Part shown: positions 10,736 to 43,222 of the stretch, one piece after another
Numbering within the stretch: position 1 is the stretch's first letter
How the letters are laid out: the number at the start of each line of letters is the position of its first letter
Source: Ferroacidibacillus organovorans
GTDB taxonomy: Bacteria; Bacillota; Bacilli; Alicyclobacillales; SLC66
Reading direction: 5' to 3'
NCBI RefSeq assembly: GCF_001642725.1
Contig: NZ_LSUQ01000009.1
Coordinates: forward strand, 1 to 64,000
Length of the DNA: 64,000 nt
The notes under the pieces: model-generated
Databases searched by the model: none
Told to the model about the DNA's origin: nothing
What the model saw: only the letters and a program-made list of their open reading frames with translations
Position numbers and translations under genes: made by a program

Positions 10736-12214
10736 TCACCGTTTCATTGGCGCCAAAACGCCTTCCGGCGGCGCTATTCCTTCAAGGCTGCATGCACCTT
10801 GCGCATAAGCGAGGTCTGGGTTTGTCTCGCGCTCGGCGGTTGGAATGACAAAGCGTTCGTCGTACTTCGCCACGCCAAACAAACGGGCCATCGCCATCAC
10901 TTGATCCGCTGTCAGACCTGACTCTTTGAGCAGTTTCTCACCGTCCATATCCCCGACCCGTGATGCGCGCATAAAGGCACGCATTGCCGTAAGGCGAATC
11001 AGCGCTCGGCGTATGACATCCGTATCGCCTGCAGACAAGATGGACGCGAGATACTCAACAGGGATTCGCATATCGTCTACCACCGTGAGATAGGCATTGG
11101 CAGACATGGAATCCTCGTTCTGTACGTGGGTCATCATCGGACTCAGCGGCGGTACATACCAGACCATCGGCATGGTGCGGTATTCCGGATGAAGCGGCAA
11201 TGCAACCTTCCATTCAACGGCCATCTTGTAGACCGGTGAATTCTGCGCCGCTTCAATCCAAGCCTCATTGATGCCCGCTTCACGAGCAGCCACAATGACA
11301 GCCGGATCGTACGGATCAAGAAATGCATCCAATTGCGCTGGATACAGATCTTTCTCGTTCTTCACTGAAGCAGCCTCACGAATCTTGTCCGCATCGTAAA
11401 ACATCACACCGAGATAGCGAATGCGCCCTACACAGGTTTCCGAGCACACCGTCGGCAGACCTGCTTCAATGCGCGGATAACAGAAGTGGCACTTTTCTGC
11501 TTTGTGGGTGTTCCAGTTAAAATAGACTTTTTTGTATGGGCATGCACTGACACAAAAACGCCACCCGCGGCAGGCATCCTGGTCAACAAGCACAATTCCG
11601 TCTTCATCGCGCTTGTAAATGGCGCCAGAAGGACACGCTGCGACGCAGGCTGGATTCAAACAATGTTCACAGATGCGGGGCAAGTACATCATAAACGTCT
11701 GTTGATAAGTAAACGCCACATGCTCCTCAATCTCGCGCAAGTTTGGATCAAGGCTCGCGATTTCAGATCCACCTGCTAAATCGTCATCAAAGTTTGGACC
11801 CCACACAGGACGATCGATAAACTGGCCTGTCAGGAGAGAGCGCGGACGGGCTGTAGGTTGATGTTTTTTCTTGGGGCTGTCTGTCAGATTTTCATAATCA
11901 TAAGTCCAAGGTTCGTAGTAATCGTCTAGGGTAGGCTGATCCGGATTGTGGAAAATATTGGCTAGTTTTGCAATCGCACCGCCGGCTCGCAAACGCAGCT
12001 TTCCATCCTTCATTGTCCATCCGCCGCGAAATTTGTCTTGGTCTTCCCAGCGCTTGGGGTAGCCAGGCCCCGGACGTGTTTCCACATTGTTAAACCAAGC
12101 GTACTCTACCCCTGGACGGTTGGTCCAAGTATTTTTGCAGGTCACACTGCAGGTGTGGCAGCCAATGCACTTGTCAAGATTCATCACCATGGCAACTTGC
12201 GCTTTAATCCTCAA
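10736..12214 (-). CDS. narH: Respiratory nitrate reductase beta subunit NarH
   Basis: 492-aa electron-transfer subunit on the cytoplasmic side of the membrane. It carries the full set of ferredoxin-type motifs. CIGCHTCSVTCKN starts at residue 18, CEHCLNPACVAACP is near 185, and CRGWRFCVSACPYKKV has Trp in place of a Cys, the mark of the [3Fe-4S] site. A last group follows as CHFC with CSETCVGR. Length is normal for Bacillus NarH. Its ATG lies 11 bp inside the end of narG, so the two are translationally coupled. Confidence 0.97.
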   Translation of the reverse strand: MRIKAQVAMVMNLDKCIGCHTCSVTCKNTWTNRPGVEYAWFNNVETRPGPGYPKRWEDQDKFRGGWTMKDGKLRLRAGGAIAKLANIFHNPDQPTLDDYYEPWTYDYENLTDSPKKKHQPTARPRSLLTGQFIDRPVWGPNFDDDLAGGSEIASLDPNLREIEEHVAFTYQQTFMMYLPRICEHCLNPACVAACPSGAIYKRDEDGIVLVDQDACRGWRFCVSACPYKKVYFNWNTHKAEKCHFCYPRIEAGLPTVCSETCVGRIRYLGVMFYDADKIREAASVKNEKDLYPAQLDAFLDPYDPAVIVAAREAGINEAWIEAAQNSPVYKMAVEWKVALPLHPEYRTMPMVWYVPPLSPMMTHVQNEDSMSANAYLTVVDDMRIPVEYLASILSAGDTDVIRRALIRLTAMRAFMRASRVGDMDGEKLLKESGLTADQVMAMARLFGVAKYDERFVIPTAERETNPDLAYAQGACSLEGIAPPEGVLAPMKR

Positions 12215-15200
12215 GCCAGTTCACCTCTTTAAGCGGACGAATGACTGTCATGACGTCCCGCTGATGTCCCGTTGGACCGTAGTAATTGAATCCATAGCTG
12301 AGTTGTGCGTAACCGCCGATCATGTGCGTCGGCTTCGGAATGATACGCGTTACACTGTTGTGCGTCCCGCCTCTGTCACCCGTGATGGTGCTGCCTGGAA
12401 CGCCTATGGTTCGATCTTGCGCATGATACATCATGGCGATGCCAGGCGGCAGCCGATACGTCACAACCGCGCGGCAAGCGATGGCGCCATTACGGTTGTA
12501 CACTTCAACCCATGCGTTGTCCTTGATGCCGATTTTTTTTGCATCTTCTTCACTCATCCAGATGGTCTGCCCACCGCGAAAAAGCGTCAGCATCCGATGA
12601 TTATCTGAGTAGGTGGAATGAATGCCCCATTTCTGATGGGGCGTAAGATAACGAACCATGACCGTCTGACCATTTTGATCATCCACCGGTGCGTCTCCAT
12701 CCTGAAATGGCAGAATGCCAAGCGGCGGACGATAGAGCGGCAACCCTTCACCAAAATCAAGCATCACTTCATGATCAAGATAGAAATGCTGGCGACCCGT
12801 CAATGTATGCCATGGTATTCGATATTCCACATTCGACGTAAAGGGCGAGTAGCGGCGGCCTTCTCCTTCAAGTCCACTCCAGACGGGCGTTGCCAGCGAG
12901 AGCCTCGGCTGTGCCGTGAGATCCTCAAAGGTGTATGCCGTCTCACGATGACCCGCTGCAACATCTTTTACATCAAGGCCTGTAAATTTGCTCAGGGCTT
13001 CCCATTCTTCAACGGCGCGATGGCCGTTCGTCGCGCCTGAGAGGGTGAGAATGGCTTCTGCAACCTGACGTTCTGTGCGGATAAGGGGGCGGCCAAACCC
13101 TGGACCTTCCGTTTTGGAAACACCTACCCGCTTTGTGAGCTCTGCATAGGCGTGTTCACCGGAGATCGCAATTCCTTTGGCCCCATAGCTTTTCTCTGAG
13201 AGCGGGCCCATCGTCGTCATCATGTCGATCACATGCGGATAATCCCGATGGACAAGCACAAATTTTGGCATCGTCTTCCCAGGAATCGCTTCGACTTCCC
13301 CCTTGCGCCAGTCGCGCACTTTTCCGCCCACTTGCGACAGCTCATCAAGAGAGTCATGATTGAGCGGAGCCATCACCAGGTCGTCTTGCGCCGGTAAGTG
13401 GTCTTTAGCGAGTCGGGAAAACGTCTCAGCGATACTTCGGAACGCTACCCAATCTGTGCGCGTCTCCCAGGGCGGAGAAATTGCCGGATTGAACGGGTGA
13501 ATGAATGGGTGCATATCCGTGCTGCTCAGATCATGCTTCTCGTACCAGGTTGCGGCAGGTAGAACAATATCCGAGTAAAGACCCGTTCCCGTCATCCGAA
13601 AATCGATATCGATGAGCAGGTCTACCTTTCCTTTCGGTGCTTGATCTGTCATACGGATATCCTGCGGTTGCCAATTCGCTTCCTCCCCAAGTACATGACC
13701 ATCTGTCCCCAGAAGATGCTTTAGAAAATACTCATGGCCTTTTGAGCTTGAACCAAGCAGGTTCGAACGCCAGACAAAGAATACACGCGGAAAATTCCGC
13801 GGATTGTCTGGATCTTCAATCGCAAAATCAATTTCGCCGTTGGCAACCTTCTTGCCGACATGCGCCGCAATCTCTTCGGCCGTTTGTGCACCAGCAGTCT
13901 TTGCGTCACGAACCACCTCGAGGGAGTTCTGTGTCCACTGAGGGAAGGAGGGCAACCAACCAAGCCTCGCTGCCAAGACATTCATATCTGCTGGATGCAT
14001 ATTCTGAAAACGGCCGCCAAGAGGCGATCCAAGGGTCTTTGTCTCCAACTCTTCATAGCGAAACTGGTCGGTGGTGAAATAAAAGAAAGAGGTTCCGTTT
14101 TGCTGACGCGGCGGTCGATTCCAGTCTGTTGCAAACGCAATCGTTGACCAACCTTCGAGCGGGCGAACCTTTTCCTGTCCCACATAGTGCGCCCATCCAC
14201 CCCCGTTCACGCCTTGGCAACCCGTGAGCAGCACCAGGTTAATAATCGACCGATAAATCATGTCACTGTGATACCAGTGGTTGGTTCCTGCGCCAAGCGC
14301 GATCATTGACTTCCCATGCGTGCGCTCCGCGTTGTCTGCAAACTCGCGCGCCACCTGAAGAACCAGGTTTCGATCCACACCGGTAATCGCTTCCTGCCAG
14401 GCAGGTGTGTACGGCAACGGGTCGTCGTAAGATGCCGGATAGTCACCCAACAATCCGCGGCGGACACCGACATGCGCCATCATCAAGTCAAAAATGGTGG
14501 TAACCCAGATGTCTTCCCCCTTTCGGTTGACGAGTTTCTTGGCAGGCACGCCTCGCTCCAACACTCGAGCTCTTGTATCCTCAAAACACGGAAATTGAAC
14601 CATCAACGTATCATCGGCGTCACTCAGGAAGCTCAGTTGCGGCGAGATGGGCGATCCATGAATGGTTTCCATGCGAAGATTCCACTGATCAGAATTGTCA
14701 TAGCGAAAGCCGATGCTGCCTTTTGGAACGACCGGCTGATTCGTCAGCTCATCCCACAGCACGGTTTTCCAGTCCCCTTGCCGCTCCTCGCTCTCCAACC
14801 CCACTTCTGAGGCTCGCAAAAACGCGCCGGAAACAAACGCGCCATTTCTCTTTTCTAGCGTCACCAAGAACGGCAAATCGGTGTTTTGTTTGACATAGGC
14901 ATCGAAGTATTCTGTTTTTTTATCAACGTAGAATTCCTGCAAGATGACTTGCGTCATGGCCATCGCGAGAGCCGCGTCCGTACCCGCTTTGGCAGGAAGC
15001 CACTGATCTGCAAACTTTACGTATTCGGCATAATCCGGGCTGACACCGACTACCTTTGTCCCGTTATAGCGAGCCTCCACCATGAAGTGTGCATCTGGCG
15101 TGCGCGTCATTGGGAGGTTGGTGCCCCAAATGATGAAGTAAGATGAGTTATACCAATCCGCACTCTCCGGCACGTCGGTTTGATCCCCCCAGATCTGCGG

Positions 15201-15902
15201 AGATGCCGGTGGAAGATCCGCATACCAGTCATAAAAACTAAGAATCGTACCTCCAATCAGGGATAGAAACCGTGATCCACCCGCATAACTCACTTGCGAC
15301 ATTGCGGGTATCGGGCTAAAGCCTGTGACCCGATCAGGCCCGTACTCTTTAATCGTATCAATCGAAGCCGCCGCAATCATTTCCGTGACTTCTTCCCACG
15401 AAGAGCGCACAAGCCCCCCCTTGCCGCGCGCCTGTTGGTATGCGGCACGCTTTACTGGATCGTTTACGATAGCACGCCAAGCGCTGATCGGATCACGTCC
15501 AGTCCCTCGCTCTTGTCGCCACAAATCAAGCAAATCCCCTCTTACATAAGGGTACTTAACTCGAAGTGGGCTGTATTCATACCAGGAAAAACTTGCGCCA
15601 CGGGGACACCCGCGAGGTTCGTATTCCGGCACATCGGGGCCCAAGGATGGGTAGTCTGTTTGCTGCGTTTCAAACGCGATGATGCCATCCTTCACATGAA
15701 TCTTCCAACTGCAACTCCCTGTACAATTCACCCCGTGCGTTGAGCGGACGACTTTGTCAAAACGCCAACGGTTACGGTATAGATCCTCCCAGTCACGAGA
15801 GCGAGGACTATGTTCCGACCAATTTTGATTGAATCGCTCGCCTCGTCGCAGGTGATTCAAGCCCTGAAGGAGTGATTTCTTTGATTTCGGCACAAGCGTC
15901 AT
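12204..15902 (-). CDS. narG: Respiratory nitrate reductase alpha subunit NarG
   Basis: 1232-aa catalytic subunit reducing nitrate to nitrite at a bis-MGD molybdenum site. The FS0 cluster motif HGVNCTGSCSW (His plus Cys ligands) is near residue 50, completed by GCPRGASFSWYEYS near 93. The molybdenum ligand Asp and its surroundings are seen in YNSSYFIIWGTNLPMTRTPD near 250, and cofactor contacts such as GTNHWYHSDMIYRS near 550. No twin-arginine signal is present, as usual for NarG facing the cytoplasm. The frame is open to 15968. ATG 15902 has AAAGGA almost touching it, so the GTG at 15893, 9 nt from that site, may be the true start. Confidence 0.97.
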   Translation of the reverse strand: MTLVPKSKKSLLQGLNHLRRGERFNQNWSEHSPRSRDWEDLYRNRWRFDKVVRSTHGVNCTGSCSWKIHVKDGIIAFETQQTDYPSLGPDVPEYEPRGCPRGASFSWYEYSPLRVKYPYVRGDLLDLWRQERGTGRDPISAWRAIVNDPVKRAAYQQARGKGGLVRSSWEEVTEMIAAASIDTIKEYGPDRVTGFSPIPAMSQVSYAGGSRFLSLIGGTILSFYDWYADLPPASPQIWGDQTDVPESADWYNSSYFIIWGTNLPMTRTPDAHFMVEARYNGTKVVGVSPDYAEYVKFADQWLPAKAGTDAALAMAMTQVILQEFYVDKKTEYFDAYVKQNTDLPFLVTLEKRNGAFVSGAFLRASEVGLESEERQGDWKTVLWDELTNQPVVPKGSIGFRYDNSDQWNLRMETIHGSPISPQLSFLSDADDTLMVQFPCFEDTRARVLERGVPAKKLVNRKGEDIWVTTIFDLMMAHVGVRRGLLGDYPASYDDPLPYTPAWQEAITGVDRNLVLQVAREFADNAERTHGKSMIALGAGTNHWYHSDMIYRSIINLVLLTGCQGVNGGGWAHYVGQEKVRPLEGWSTIAFATDWNRPPRQQNGTSFFYFTTDQFRYEELETKTLGSPLGGRFQNMHPADMNVLAARLGWLPSFPQWTQNSLEVVRDAKTAGAQTAEEIAAHVGKKVANGEIDFAIEDPDNPRNFPRVFFVWRSNLLGSSSKGHEYFLKHLLGTDGHVLGEEANWQPQDIRMTDQAPKGKVDLLIDIDFRMTGTGLYSDIVLPAATWYEKHDLSSTDMHPFIHPFNPAISPPWETRTDWVAFRSIAETFSRLAKDHLPAQDDLVMAPLNHDSLDELSQVGGKVRDWRKGEVEAIPGKTMPKFVLVHRDYPHVIDMMTTMGPLSEKSYGAKGIAISGEHAYAELTKRVGVSKTEGPGFGRPLIRTERQVAEAILTLSGATNGHRAVEEWEALSKFTGLDVKDVAAGHRETAYTFEDLTAQPRLSLATPVWSGLEGEGRRYSPFTSNVEYRIPWHTLTGRQHFYLDHEVMLDFGEGLPLYRPPLGILPFQDGDAPVDDQNGQTVMVRYLTPHQKWGIHSTYSDNHRMLTLFRGGQTIWMSEEDAKKIGIKDNAWVEVYNRNGAIACRAVVTYRLPPGIAMMYHAQDRTIGVPGSTITGDRGGTHNSVTRIIPKPTHMIGGYAQLSYGFNYYGPTGHQRDVMTVIRPLKEVNWLED

Positions 15903-16003
15903 TCCTTTCGCATTTGCGTCAAGCGACTGACGCTTTGTCAGCGACAGCAATTCATAGCATCCAATCAACCAGGAACTCGTTGTGGCTTAAATGGTTTACA
16001 AAA

Positions 16004-16279
16004 TCACTTAAAAGGCTGGTACTGTGTACCCACGATTCGAAATGCGGATTCACTCCCCTCAAGTTCCATGATGAAGGTCTTCCAATTCGGCACATTGGCG
16101 GCGACCAGAACCAGACGTTCGAGGGCGTTTGCATCTGTGATGCGTTCAATCTGCCCTGTGATTTCTTGCGGAACTGTGCCGAATCGAAGGTTCAGCAAAC
16201 CAATGAGATCATCTTTGTCTGTCGCCAAAGCATCTTGCTTCCACTGATCTTGAATCTTGTCCCAGTCCACTTCGACCAC
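16004..16279 (-). CDS. Small helical protein of the nitrate reductase operon, function unknown
   Basis: 91-aa acidic protein with no export signal or membrane segment. It begins VDWDKIQDQWKQDAL and contains DLIGLLNLRFGTVPQEITGQIERI and DANALERLVLVAANV, a helix pattern like the C-terminal DUF4351-type helical domains that follow RLL-x-RFG-x(2)P. I know no assigned function. GTG starts lie at 16279 and 16270. AAAAGGGG is best placed for the second. It lies 47 bp after the hemerythrin-like gene and about 100 bp before narG, in the same direction, so a role in nitrate reductase expression or assembly is plausible (inference). Confidence 0.65.
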   Translation of the reverse strand: MVEVDWDKIQDQWKQDALATDKDDLIGLLNLRFGTVPQEITGQIERITDANALERLVLVAANVPNWKTFIMELEGSESAFRIVGTQYQPFK

Positions 16280-16326: not shown

Positions 16327-16770
16327 CTATCGTCGTTTGGCGTGATCGTTCGTCTCTATATCAAGCAGCCACTTCTCCTCGTCACGACTGTGTTTTTCAA
16401 CGAGCCAAAGAAGCATTTGGAATCGATCAAGTATTGCAGGAATTGTACCTTGATTGACCAAAAGTTCCTCCGCCTCCGCCACAAGTTGCCGCATAACATT
16501 GTGATCTCGCGTAAGAAAAAGGATCTTATCCGCGTGTTCCGGGTGCTCCATCGCAACTTCTTTATAGAAACCTTCCTCTTCCTCCGTCGCATGGCAAAGT
16601 GTTCGCGTTTGCCAATGCTCAATAATCAATCTCGCCGTCGAGATCACCGCTTGCTCTTTGCCTGCGTCCGCAAACGCTTTGGCGATATGAGTTAACTCTT
16701 CCGCCTCACCATAAGCCGCTTCATGAATGGAACGGTGCGATTGAAGCTGTTGCAATGCCGGTCCTGACAT
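16327..16770 (-). CDS. Hemerythrin-like (HHE) domain protein
   Basis: 147-aa four-helix-bundle protein. Spaced His and carboxylate residues match a di-iron hemerythrin-like site: SHRSIHEAAYGEAEEL, IIEHWQTRTLCHATEEEEGFY, LTRDHNVMRQL and KHSRDEEKWLLD. Such proteins bind oxygen, NO or iron. AGGAGG lies 9 nt before the ATG at 16770. It is the first gene of the nar operon here. In that setting sensing or scavenging NO or O2, or iron-centre repair, is a reasonable inference. A palindrome-rich promoter region precedes it. Confidence 0.75.
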   Translation of the reverse strand: MSGPALQQLQSHRSIHEAAYGEAEELTHIAKAFADAGKEQAVISTARLIIEHWQTRTLCHATEEEEGFYKEVAMEHPEHADKILFLTRDHNVMRQLVAEAEELLVNQGTIPAILDRFQMLLWLVEKHSRDEEKWLLDIETNDHAKRR

Positions 16771-16825
16771 ATGCGGCGACCTCCTGTATGCGAATGCACG
16801 CAATCACTGACGACCAAGGATCTCT

Positions 16826-17368: not shown

Positions 17369-19585
17369 CTATTGGATATTCTGAAAAACGCTCGATTTGC
17401 TGAAAAGAATTCCGACTGGACATTTGACCGTCCGAACAATTCGATCTACAGTGTGTCCGCAATAGAGGTCTCCACCTGCTGGTCGCCGCTCGGCATTGAG
17501 CAAAATAATATCCTGTTGAGATGCATTAGAAAATTCCACAATTTCATGACCGACATTTCCACCCGTGCCTGTTTTGACAATTCCGTTTACAGGTACATTC
17601 GACGCTTCACCCAAACGAGTAACTTCCGAAATTGCATGCCAACCCATGTTTTCAGCGGATTCCATCGCCTGCATGTCAAGTGATTCACTGCTAAACAATG
17701 CTTTTAATGGATTGGTTTCAACCACGTATATCGCGGTTATCTCAGCGTTGTGCGCCTTGGCAAGCGCGACTGCAAATTCCGCAGTTCGCAAGTCATTTGT
17801 GGTGCCTGTCGTTGGCAAGAGAATGCGTTTCAGAAGAGAAATACTTTCTAGCCGCCACGGCGCGTACAGAACGAATACGTTACAAGGGGATTCCATTACA
17901 ACATAATCAACCACATGCCCAAACAAGCTCGATCCACTCTTGTTTCTGCTGGCTCCAACCACAAGCAAATCATAACCCCGCTCACTTTCTGAGAGAATGA
18001 CATTGGCAGTGTGTTCATCCTGTTTAAGCTTCCGTGTCTTTTGTTCCCATTCGACATTTTTAATAGAGGAGAGTGATTTTGCAAGCACAAGTTCATTGAG
18101 TTTCTCATTTTCATGAAAGTTATCTTCACGATTGATCCGTCCTGATTCCGGCAGTCCATCGGTCGTCACATGCAAAAGCGTTGCCTCAATTGAACGTTGG
18201 CCGGACAAATGTTGAATAATATTGGCTGCCAATAAGGCTATCCTTCCATCCCGGACGGGGACAAGCATGCGTTTCAGACCATAGAGAAAACTTTTTTCTT
18301 CGAGCGATTGGCGCTGTAGTCGCTCTGCTTCTTCCGGATCAGGAGCCACGTGACGAAGCGCCCACCGCAACAATGGCGGTGCCATCATGGAAGTGGCGAT
18401 CGCCATAATGACAATAATCGTATACATGGACGTGGTTAAAACGCCGATTTGCAAGCCAAGTGTGGCTATGATAATTTCCACGGCTCCCCGGGCGTTCATA
18501 CCTGAACCAAGGCTAATTGCAGTCCAATGATTTAAACGCGCTAGACGGGCACCTGCATAAGTGCCTACAAGTTTCGCCAGAGAAGCAGTAACGATCACAA
18601 GCAGTAAAACGAGTAGCAACTCAGGTTTTAAGATTTGTAAAATGTTCACTTTGAGCCCAGCCGTTGCAAAAAAAATGGGCGCAAATATTGCCAATGTCAT
18701 ACCTTCAAGTTTGATACGTGTCGCGCGTGTGATACGCGGAACGCGCGCCATTTGGATGCCAACCAGAAACGAACCGAGAAACGCTTCAACATGGAGGGCT
18801 TCTGTAACAGCACCGCCTGCAAGTCCCAACACAACGACCAACGTAAAGACCGGACTTTCACCGCCAAATTGATTATCCACCCATTTTGTCAATGCCCGAA
18901 TCATCCGGTAACCAATGGTGAAACAAAAGACTGCAAACGCCAGAGTGCCGAAGATGGAAATCATCAAGGAATTAATTTGGAGATTTTGGGAGGTTGCCAT
19001 GCCAGAAACAAAAGCGAGCAAAAACCAGCCAATGGTGTCATTGATAATGCCTGATGCCAGGATCAACTGCCCAATATCCCTTTTCATCAAGTTCATATCC
19101 AACAAGATTTTTACAATCACAGGAATTGCCGATATGGACATGGCAGTAGCAACGAACAACATGAAAATTTGCCTTGCTCCGGGATGTGCAATCAGTGCGG
19201 CAGGCAGGAGGCTTGCTAAGCAATAACCTGCCAAAAAAGGAGTAATAATGCTTCCGATTGAGATGGTGAGAGCTGGTTTTAATTTGCGCTTAACCACTTC
19301 GAGATTTGTTTCGAGCCCACTTAAAAGCAACAAAAAAATGACGCCAATCTGGGCGATGAGCTGGAGTAATAGTCCTTGAGCCCCTTTTGAGGGAAATAAG
19401 TTGGCAAACAGACTAGGTGAGATAGCGCCAAACAAGGATGGTCCTATAAGCACACCAGCGAGTAGTTCACCGATTACTTGAGGCTGATTTAACCGCCGGG
19501 CCAGTTCTCCTAAGACACGCGCGCAGACAAGCAATACTAGAAATTCGAGTAAAAATCGCAATACTTCGAGTGCAGTCAGAGACAC
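17369..19585 (-). CDS. CPA2 cation/proton antiporter with two UspA domains
   Basis: 738-aa membrane protein. Residues ~1-400 hold about 12 hydrophobic helices of the KefB/NapA-like monovalent cation:proton antiporter fold: NQPQVIGELLAGVLIGPSL near 30, SGLETNLE near 85, ASGIINDTIGWFLLAF near 175 with the ND pair of the transport site, and GSGMNARGAVEI near 360. Residues ~430-580 and ~590-735 are two universal-stress-protein domains. The first has GASRNKSGSSLFGHVVDYV, an ATP-binding G-x2-G-x9-GS-like loop. The GTG at 19585 follows GAGGAGG by 8 nt. The leader carries a c-di-AMP riboswitch, so K+ (or Na+) flux under c-di-AMP control is the likely role. Confidence 0.88.
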   Translation of the reverse strand: MSLTALEVLRFLLEFLVLLVCARVLGELARRLNQPQVIGELLAGVLIGPSLFGAISPSLFANLFPSKGAQGLLLQLIAQIGVIFLLLLSGLETNLEVVKRKLKPALTISIGSIITPFLAGYCLASLLPAALIAHPGARQIFMLFVATAMSISAIPVIVKILLDMNLMKRDIGQLILASGIINDTIGWFLLAFVSGMATSQNLQINSLMISIFGTLAFAVFCFTIGYRMIRALTKWVDNQFGGESPVFTLVVVLGLAGGAVTEALHVEAFLGSFLVGIQMARVPRITRATRIKLEGMTLAIFAPIFFATAGLKVNILQILKPELLLVLLLVIVTASLAKLVGTYAGARLARLNHWTAISLGSGMNARGAVEIIIATLGLQIGVLTTSMYTIIVIMAIATSMMAPPLLRWALRHVAPDPEEAERLQRQSLEEKSFLYGLKRMLVPVRDGRIALLAANIIQHLSGQRSIEATLLHVTTDGLPESGRINREDNFHENEKLNELVLAKSLSSIKNVEWEQKTRKLKQDEHTANVILSESERGYDLLVVGASRNKSGSSLFGHVVDYVVMESPCNVFVLYAPWRLESISLLKRILLPTTGTTNDLRTAEFAVALAKAHNAEITAIYVVETNPLKALFSSESLDMQAMESAENMGWHAISEVTRLGEASNVPVNGIVKTGTGGNVGHEIVEFSNASQQDIILLNAERRPAGGDLYCGHTVDRIVRTVKCPVGILFSKSSVFQNIQ

Positions 19586-19658
19586 GTCTATTTCCTCCTC
19601 TTTGGAGCCAATATCGCATCCCCTCAACGTCTTGAAGACAGTGAACATGGGAGAAATA

Positions 19659-19680
19659 AGCATACAAAAATTTGCATGCT
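19659..19680 (-). terminator. Riboswitch-associated terminator hairpin
   Basis: On the minus strand AGCATGCAAA pairs with TTTGTATGCT (10 bp with one G-U) over a 2-nt turn, followed by TATTTCTC. It lies immediately after the c-di-AMP aptamer and 75 bp before the start codon, where an expression-platform terminator would be. The U tract is modest. Confidence 0.55.
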
Positions 19681-19687
19681 GAAATCA

Positions 19688-19830
19688 TGTCCAACGCTTA
19701 CGAGGTTAGCTGACGGGCTCGGAGAGAACAGTACCCCTACCTGAAGTTCAGGATTAGCCCCAAAAATTGGTTCCCCCGTTCACCAGTTCACGGCGACTCA
19801 GCGACAGGCTTAGCAAACGATTTACTCTTA
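19688..19830 (-). ncRNA. c-di-AMP riboswitch (ydaO/yuaA class)
   Basis: The minus strand carries the conserved blocks of the ydaO-yuaA class in order. First comes ATCGTTTGCTAAG at the 5-prime end, then ACGGGGGAACCA and GGGGCTAATCC. AGGGGTACT and CTCCGAGCCCGTCAGCTAACC follow, closed by CTCGTAAGCGTT. The GTCAGCTAACCTCGTAAGCG block (about 19690-19710) is nearly invariant in this class. Known members switch expression OFF when c-di-AMP binds and govern K+ transport and cell-wall genes. A terminator-like hairpin follows at 19659-19680 and the regulated gene is the antiporter at 19585. Confidence 0.92.
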
Positions 19831-19843
19831 CCTATGGTTTTGG

Positions 19844-19872
19844 ATTATAGCATCGACTGGATTTCTTGTCAT
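19844..19872 (-). promoter_or_regulatory. Promoter of the riboswitch-antiporter transcript
   Basis: TATAAT (complement of 19844-19849) and ATGACA (complement of 19867-19872) are 17 bp apart. Transcription would start near 19837, just ahead of the c-di-AMP aptamer. Confidence 0.65.
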
Positions 19873-43014: not shown

Positions 43015-43222
43015 CATGGGTGTTCAGAGAAAAGGCAGGTCTCCTGGCTCGGGATCACAGCCGTCGATTTCCTTCCCAAGCAAACGCTCAGTGGCAATCA
43101 ATCGAGGCTCACCCTTACAGTGGCGGGACCGCACCGGACTTGCACCGGTTTCCCTCTTACGCTTACCTCTGGCATCTAAAAGAAATTACGCTTTTAGAGT
43201 CACCTGAGGTAAACACCTTTTC
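43015..43222 (-). ncRNA. Cobalamin (B12) riboswitch
   Basis: The minus strand shows, in order, GGTGTTTACC (P1 side), ATGCCAGAGGTAAGCG, GGGAAACCGGTGCAAGTCCG, GCGGTCCCGCCACTGTAAGG and the B12 box GAGCCAGGAGACCTGCC, then GAACACC closing P1. This is a complete adenosylcobalamin-type aptamer. High B12 should promote formation of the terminator at 42889-42920 and shut off the corrin and cobalt-uptake operon. Confidence 0.96.

Follow-up and report, generated by a model that had tools for sequence, protein, structure and literature searches.

The window, that is the whole stretch of 64,000 nucleotides analysed here (Ferroacidibacillus organovorans, contig NZ_LSUQ01000009.1), carries on its reverse strand a gene for a CPA2 cation/proton antiporter preceded by a c-di-AMP riboswitch aptamer of the ydaO/yuaA class. 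The aptamer (19813..19680, -) matches the Rfam model RF00379 with 86.7 bits (E = 7.4e-19), above the gathering cut-off of 38 bits, and the match spans the whole model (positions 1-134); the covariance-model search proposed in the initial annotation is therefore in keeping with its description of a near-textbook member of this class. The same annotation had given the aptamer its own promoter, which was also recovered: the top-scoring site 5' of the aptamer is a sigma-70 type promoter with an extended TG. The aptamer lies in the 5' UTR, with this promoter before it and the gene start 94 nt past its end. The riboswitch of the window truly belongs to a known class, and its target is both uncommon and conserved. 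The features of the locus are listed below.

19844..19872 (-): sigma-70 type promoter, ATGACA-17-TATAAT with extended TG, 11/12 consensus matches
19680..19813 (-): c-di-AMP (ydaO/yuaA) riboswitch aptamer, RF00379, full length
19792..19810 (-): 5' side of aptamer stem P1 with neighbouring bases; in-register complementarity predicts that it can pair with the linker strand instead
19659..19680 (-): hairpin resembling a terminator, its U tail weak; in the window only, absent from the L030 and L031 leaders
19606..19623 (-): conserved linker strand directly upstream of the anti-SD, complementary both to the start region and to P1 5'
19578..19623 (-): hairpin over the Shine-Dalgarno and GTG, predicted OFF state, -18.4 kcal/mol, z -3.5
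19594..19599 (-): Shine-Dalgarno AGGAGG, from sequence
17369..19585 (-): CPA2 cation/proton antiporter gene, 738 aa from a GTG start, two Usp folds at the C-terminus
18356..19525 (-): Na_H_Exchanger transmembrane domain, with the CPA motif ND and the TM10 Lys
17861..18274 (-): first Usp fold, limits approximate, no ATP-type motif
17414..17830 (-): second Usp fold, no ATP-type motif

The first ATG of the open reading frame is at 19663, but the gene probably starts at the GTG at 19585, since the Shine-Dalgarno (SD) at 19599-19594 and the alignment of the homologues' N-termini (MSLT..LRF) both point there. A UvrD-like helicase gene lies upstream of the antiporter gene; downstream follow a hemerythrin-like gene (16327-16803) and genes that read as nitrate reductase subunits (10736-16279, -). 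Elsewhere in the window, a strong cobalamin riboswitch (43028-43222, -, 105.4 bits) stands upstream of sirohaem/cobalamin biosynthesis-like genes (CbiX-, SUMT- and CobJ-like) that run from 42833 down to 39558.

The host genome has eight c-di-AMP aptamers, the antiporter's included. Five precede exported cell-wall proteins (NlpC/P60, LysM, 3D, cell-wall hydrolase) and one the gene of an ABC transporter ATPase that is followed by permease and binding-protein-like genes. Another, at locus L009 (5180-5907, G000:C3), has a clear terminator and is followed by a 167-aa protein without a Pfam match. Since two diadenylate cyclase (DAC) domains are encoded, c-di-AMP can be made in this host. RCK_C gave a single weak match in the genome, so classical protein-level control of the Ktr/CpaA type seems largely missing.

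The exchanger domain and its Usp tail

The protein matches Na_H_Exchanger (PF00999) with 187.9 bits and Usp with 91 bits in two stretches. Its assignment to CPA2 follows from the Na_H_Exchanger fold, a Lys at position 8 and the lack of a Glu at position 5 combined with an Arg at position 8. By sequence, NapA is the closest match to the membrane domain (E = 5e-37), and the alignment to NapA places the key residues at N182-D183 and K338. TM5 reads ND in all nine homologues, not the DD (two Asp) of the electrogenic NapA/NhaA type; the combination of Asn at position 6 and Lys at position 8 is predicted to be electroneutral and is found in the CHX and Kef clades (PMC6181914). In the NapA alignment, the TM4 residues are without the Ser/Thr linked to K+ selectivity (PMC6181914), and they do not settle the choice between K+ and Na+.

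The initial annotation had described two ATP-type UspA domains. Two Usp folds are indeed present, but neither is of the ATP type: the motif G-x2-G-x9-G-[S/T] is absent in the nine homologues, in both Usp domains of the window protein, and comparison with ATP-binding relatives shows N/R/GH and G/R/GH at its positions. A role of the tail as a KdpD-like c-di-AMP binder was also considered and dropped, since neither the window protein nor eight homologues have the motif SxS-X20-FTAxY. The Usp folds may bind some other ligand. The fold matches of the predicted structure (tandem Usp proteins, NapA and KefC) are taken as supportive at most, because the whole-protein prediction is of low confidence (pLDDT 60.8, membrane part mostly <50).

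Distribution of the aptamer-antiporter pair

The pair of aptamer and antiporter is kept in at least six bacterial species: besides the window, it was found in the Bacillota MAGs G151, G152, G536, G537 and G813, which belong to an order other than the window's. In G152 the antiporter-linked aptamer is the genome's only c-di-AMP aptamer. Five of the six antiporter-linked aptamers, the window's among them, fall into a single clade (support 1.0), separate from the remaining aptamers of those genomes; G813, which was found later, was left out of this tree. The antiporter is present in 7 among 151 relatives, where only the window copy has the aptamer, and none of 59 genes sampled downstream of c-di-AMP aptamers in relatives encodes a CPA antiporter; by reading, the targets there include KimA-type, KtrA/KtrB and Kdp genes, ABC importers, cell-wall proteins and one lone Usp gene. 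The window alone was matched both by an antiporter profile search in 399 genomes across the phylum and by a pattern for the aptamer's signature in 400 genomes of its class. Eight antiporter homologues lack the aptamer; it is missing from G539 and from a second antiporter copy in G151.

The pairing of aptamer and antiporter is not accidental. The most economical history is an ancient aptamer-antiporter unit with several losses, the alternative being a transfer of the unit. The closest aptamer-less homologues (L028, L029 and L032) have a different conserved leader, GAACGCCACAACAGGCGAGGGCGTCAAGGGG, which is able to pair with their own start region and may be a replacement control element. The lone Usp gene mentioned above (L092, G034:C118:37332-39542; PF00582, 101.9 bits) stands alone behind a c-di-AMP aptamer that is one of two close together on that contig, an arrangement that suggests an independent link between Usp and c-di-AMP.

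The start region and the sign of control

The initial annotation had the riboswitch preceding and controlling the antiporter and turning it off at high c-di-AMP. The first claim is supported, and OFF logic is probable. The reading that we favour, by a modest margin over even chances, is that high c-di-AMP lowers production of the CPA2-Usp antiporter through the riboswitch, most likely at translation. Described ydaO switches are OFF switches (PMC9960051), and translational action has a precedent in nlpC of C. glutamicum (PMC9960051). A translational platform is probable here from three signs shared among the leaders: a weak start codon, a paired SD and a linker strand able to pair with P1 5'. 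The six aptamer leaders start with GTG (five) or TTG (one), against ATG in all eight aptamer-less homologues. The SD is paired in most of the six, and opening it costs 6.1-11.7 kcal/mol, more than in any of the eight aptamer-less homologues (2.9-5.6 kcal/mol), although the effect is weak against shuffles in two leaders and the start region can be paired in some aptamer-less homologues too. Against composition-matched shuffles the window stands out clearly (1/200 as high), three leaders moderately, and L030 and G813 show no effect; high G+C makes hairpins cheap in the five leaders other than the window's. The window's hairpin over the SD and GTG (19578..19623, -) was equalled in stability by 0/200 shuffles.

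Outside the SD/start region, no part of the linker is better conserved than the linker strand (19606..19623). It is complementary to the start region and also to the P1 5' strand, the latter in one register shared by 6/6 leaders, with 79.6% of cells paired, a figure that drops to 31-53% when the strands are slid. With little c-di-AMP the aptamer would be loose and its P1 5' strand would pair with the linker strand, leaving the SD and GTG free; with c-di-AMP bound, P1 would be locked and the linker strand would close the hairpin over the SD and start codon, so that translation would halt. This exchange of the linker strand between P1 5' and the start region has about even odds, since it comes without double-sided covariation: no pair in the proposed alternative helix is altered on both sides among the six leaders, because the aptamer strand is nearly invariant. 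Folding leaves the SD more open with the real aptamers than with most shuffled ones, and equally or more open without a bound aptamer in 6/6 leaders, but the difference between bound and unbound is small (0-3.6 kcal/mol), so OFF logic is not provable by folding alone. The leader of G813, found once the idea had been formed, backs translational control weakly: its SD opening (6.1 kcal/mol) is no better than in shuffles, and the bound and unbound states are equal.

As for physiology, high c-di-AMP marks K+-replete cells; it turns uptake genes down and, acting on the proteins, activates exporters, CpaA and KhtTU among them (PMC10284832); it is also taken to signal that there is no osmotic distress (PMC9337991). 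An OFF-switched K+ exporter would run against this logic. A Na+ exporter made as c-di-AMP falls would fit, since the relatives' aptamers target osmolyte and K+ import and high c-di-AMP means no osmotic distress. The antiporter would then be part of the response to low c-di-AMP (salt or osmotic stress, or K+ shortage), most simply by moving Na+ out and H+ in. Such Na+ extrusion at low c-di-AMP is preferred but unproven. The initial annotation had taken off-control to suggest an importer or a role in Na+/pH balance: to read OFF control as a sign against a K+ exporter is reasonable, whereas the ion and the direction are not readable from sequence. The full scheme, in which a strand-exchange translational platform would make a cation extruder only at low c-di-AMP and widen the c-di-AMP regulon to efflux with a logic opposite to that of CpaA/KhtTU, is put forward tentatively.

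A K+/H+ antiporter under OFF control, serving pH or volume regulation rather than Na+ export, is a possible but doubtful reading. The Asn and Lys at positions 6 and 8, with their predicted electroneutrality and their occurrence in the CHX/Kef clades, speak for it, but K+ export at low c-di-AMP, hence at low K+, would oppose the known logic and TM4 lacks the Ser/Thr associated with K+ selectivity.

Another possibility is that OFF control is exerted at transcription, with c-di-AMP binding causing the hairpin at 19680-19659 to form as an intrinsic terminator, much as in kimA of B. subtilis or kdp of B. thuringiensis, the latter described as using termination (PMC6488665). The terminator-like hairpin of the initial annotation does exist (19680..19659, -; -10.2 kcal/mol, z -4.9), it lies immediately 3' of P1, and the host's C3 aptamer has a clear terminator. 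Nevertheless, its 9-bp stem is AU-rich, its tail is the poor UAUUUCUC instead of a U-run, and the six sites of this type counted region-wide are close to the shuffled mean of 3.5. The hairpin is missing from the related leaders, and no T-run of at least four occurs in the other five antiporter-linked leaders, which share the features of a translational platform. A terminator as expression platform is not well supported, though the window's hairpin could end transcription, and transcriptional OFF control appears unlikely.

The opposite sign, in which c-di-AMP would raise expression and a K+ exporter would be produced at high K+ and high c-di-AMP, would match the activation of CpaA and KhtTU (PMC10284832); it would agree with the likeness of the ND...K motif to CHX/Kef K+/H+ antiporters (PMC6181914) and with the near absence of RCK_C from the host, which would leave no CpaA-type protein control. 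Yet the ydaO switches described so far are OFF, folding opens the SD equally or more without the bound aptamer, and no anti-SD overlapping P1 that would give ON logic was found; an ON switch is accordingly quite improbable. Finally, the idea that the aptamer has no effect on the antiporter, being a relic or a passenger, is hardly credible: the closest homologues (67-68% identity) and five further copies do manage without it, but it is full-length and high-scoring, holds the same place in six genomes of two orders, and the five aptamers in the tree form one clade.

Relation to known c-di-AMP systems and exchangers

The initial annotation considered control of one transporter at both the RNA and the protein level unusual, but it is already established for KimA and KtrAB of B. 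subtilis (PMC10284832), so that the present antiporter would not stand out in this respect even were its protein shown to be controlled as well. OFF logic on an exchanger is still of interest. c-di-AMP is known to shut off the uptake of K+ and osmolytes and to open K+ exporters, and a conserved riboswitch before an exchanger gene would take the RNA arm of this control to efflux and open its sign to direct testing. No report of an antiporter as a c-di-AMP riboswitch target was found in the accessible literature, which did not take in the main published gene lists.

Among related proteins, NapA of T. thermophilus aligns with the membrane domain but has no tail, where the window protein has two tandem Usp folds. 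The ND...K motif is that of some CHX/Kef proteins (plant CHX, KefC of E. coli), but KefC carries KTN/RCK in place of the Usp folds. KdpD of S. aureus, a c-di-AMP receptor, likewise has a Usp fold on a K+-related protein; its SxS-X20-FTAxY motif is the difference. The tandem Na+/c-di-AMP riboswitch logic gate (PMC9337991) also places a c-di-AMP riboswitch in osmotic and ion stress, and the Na+ riboswitch class often precedes antiporter genes, but the Rfam search found no Na+ (DUF1646) aptamer in the window. With the ydaO/kimA class (kimA and ktrAB of B. subtilis, kdpFABC of B. thuringiensis) the locus shares the aptamer, its own promoter and a long 5' UTR before an ion-transporter gene, and OFF logic is expected here too; it differs in that leaders of the window's type have no conserved terminator and in that the target is a CPA2 exchanger, whereas the known targets in the cited papers are K+ importers, osmolyte importers and cell-wall genes. 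The nlpC riboswitch of C. glutamicum (PMC9960051) is a translational OFF switch without a canonical terminator and with a proposed anti-SD pairing, and the window is predicted to be alike, although the target there is a cell-wall peptidase and the exchange predicted here is that of a linker strand between P1 5' and the start region. Translational c-di-AMP control has so far been shown in C. glutamicum, according to the authors of that work (PMC9960051), and the present reading, if correct, would provide a Bacillota example.
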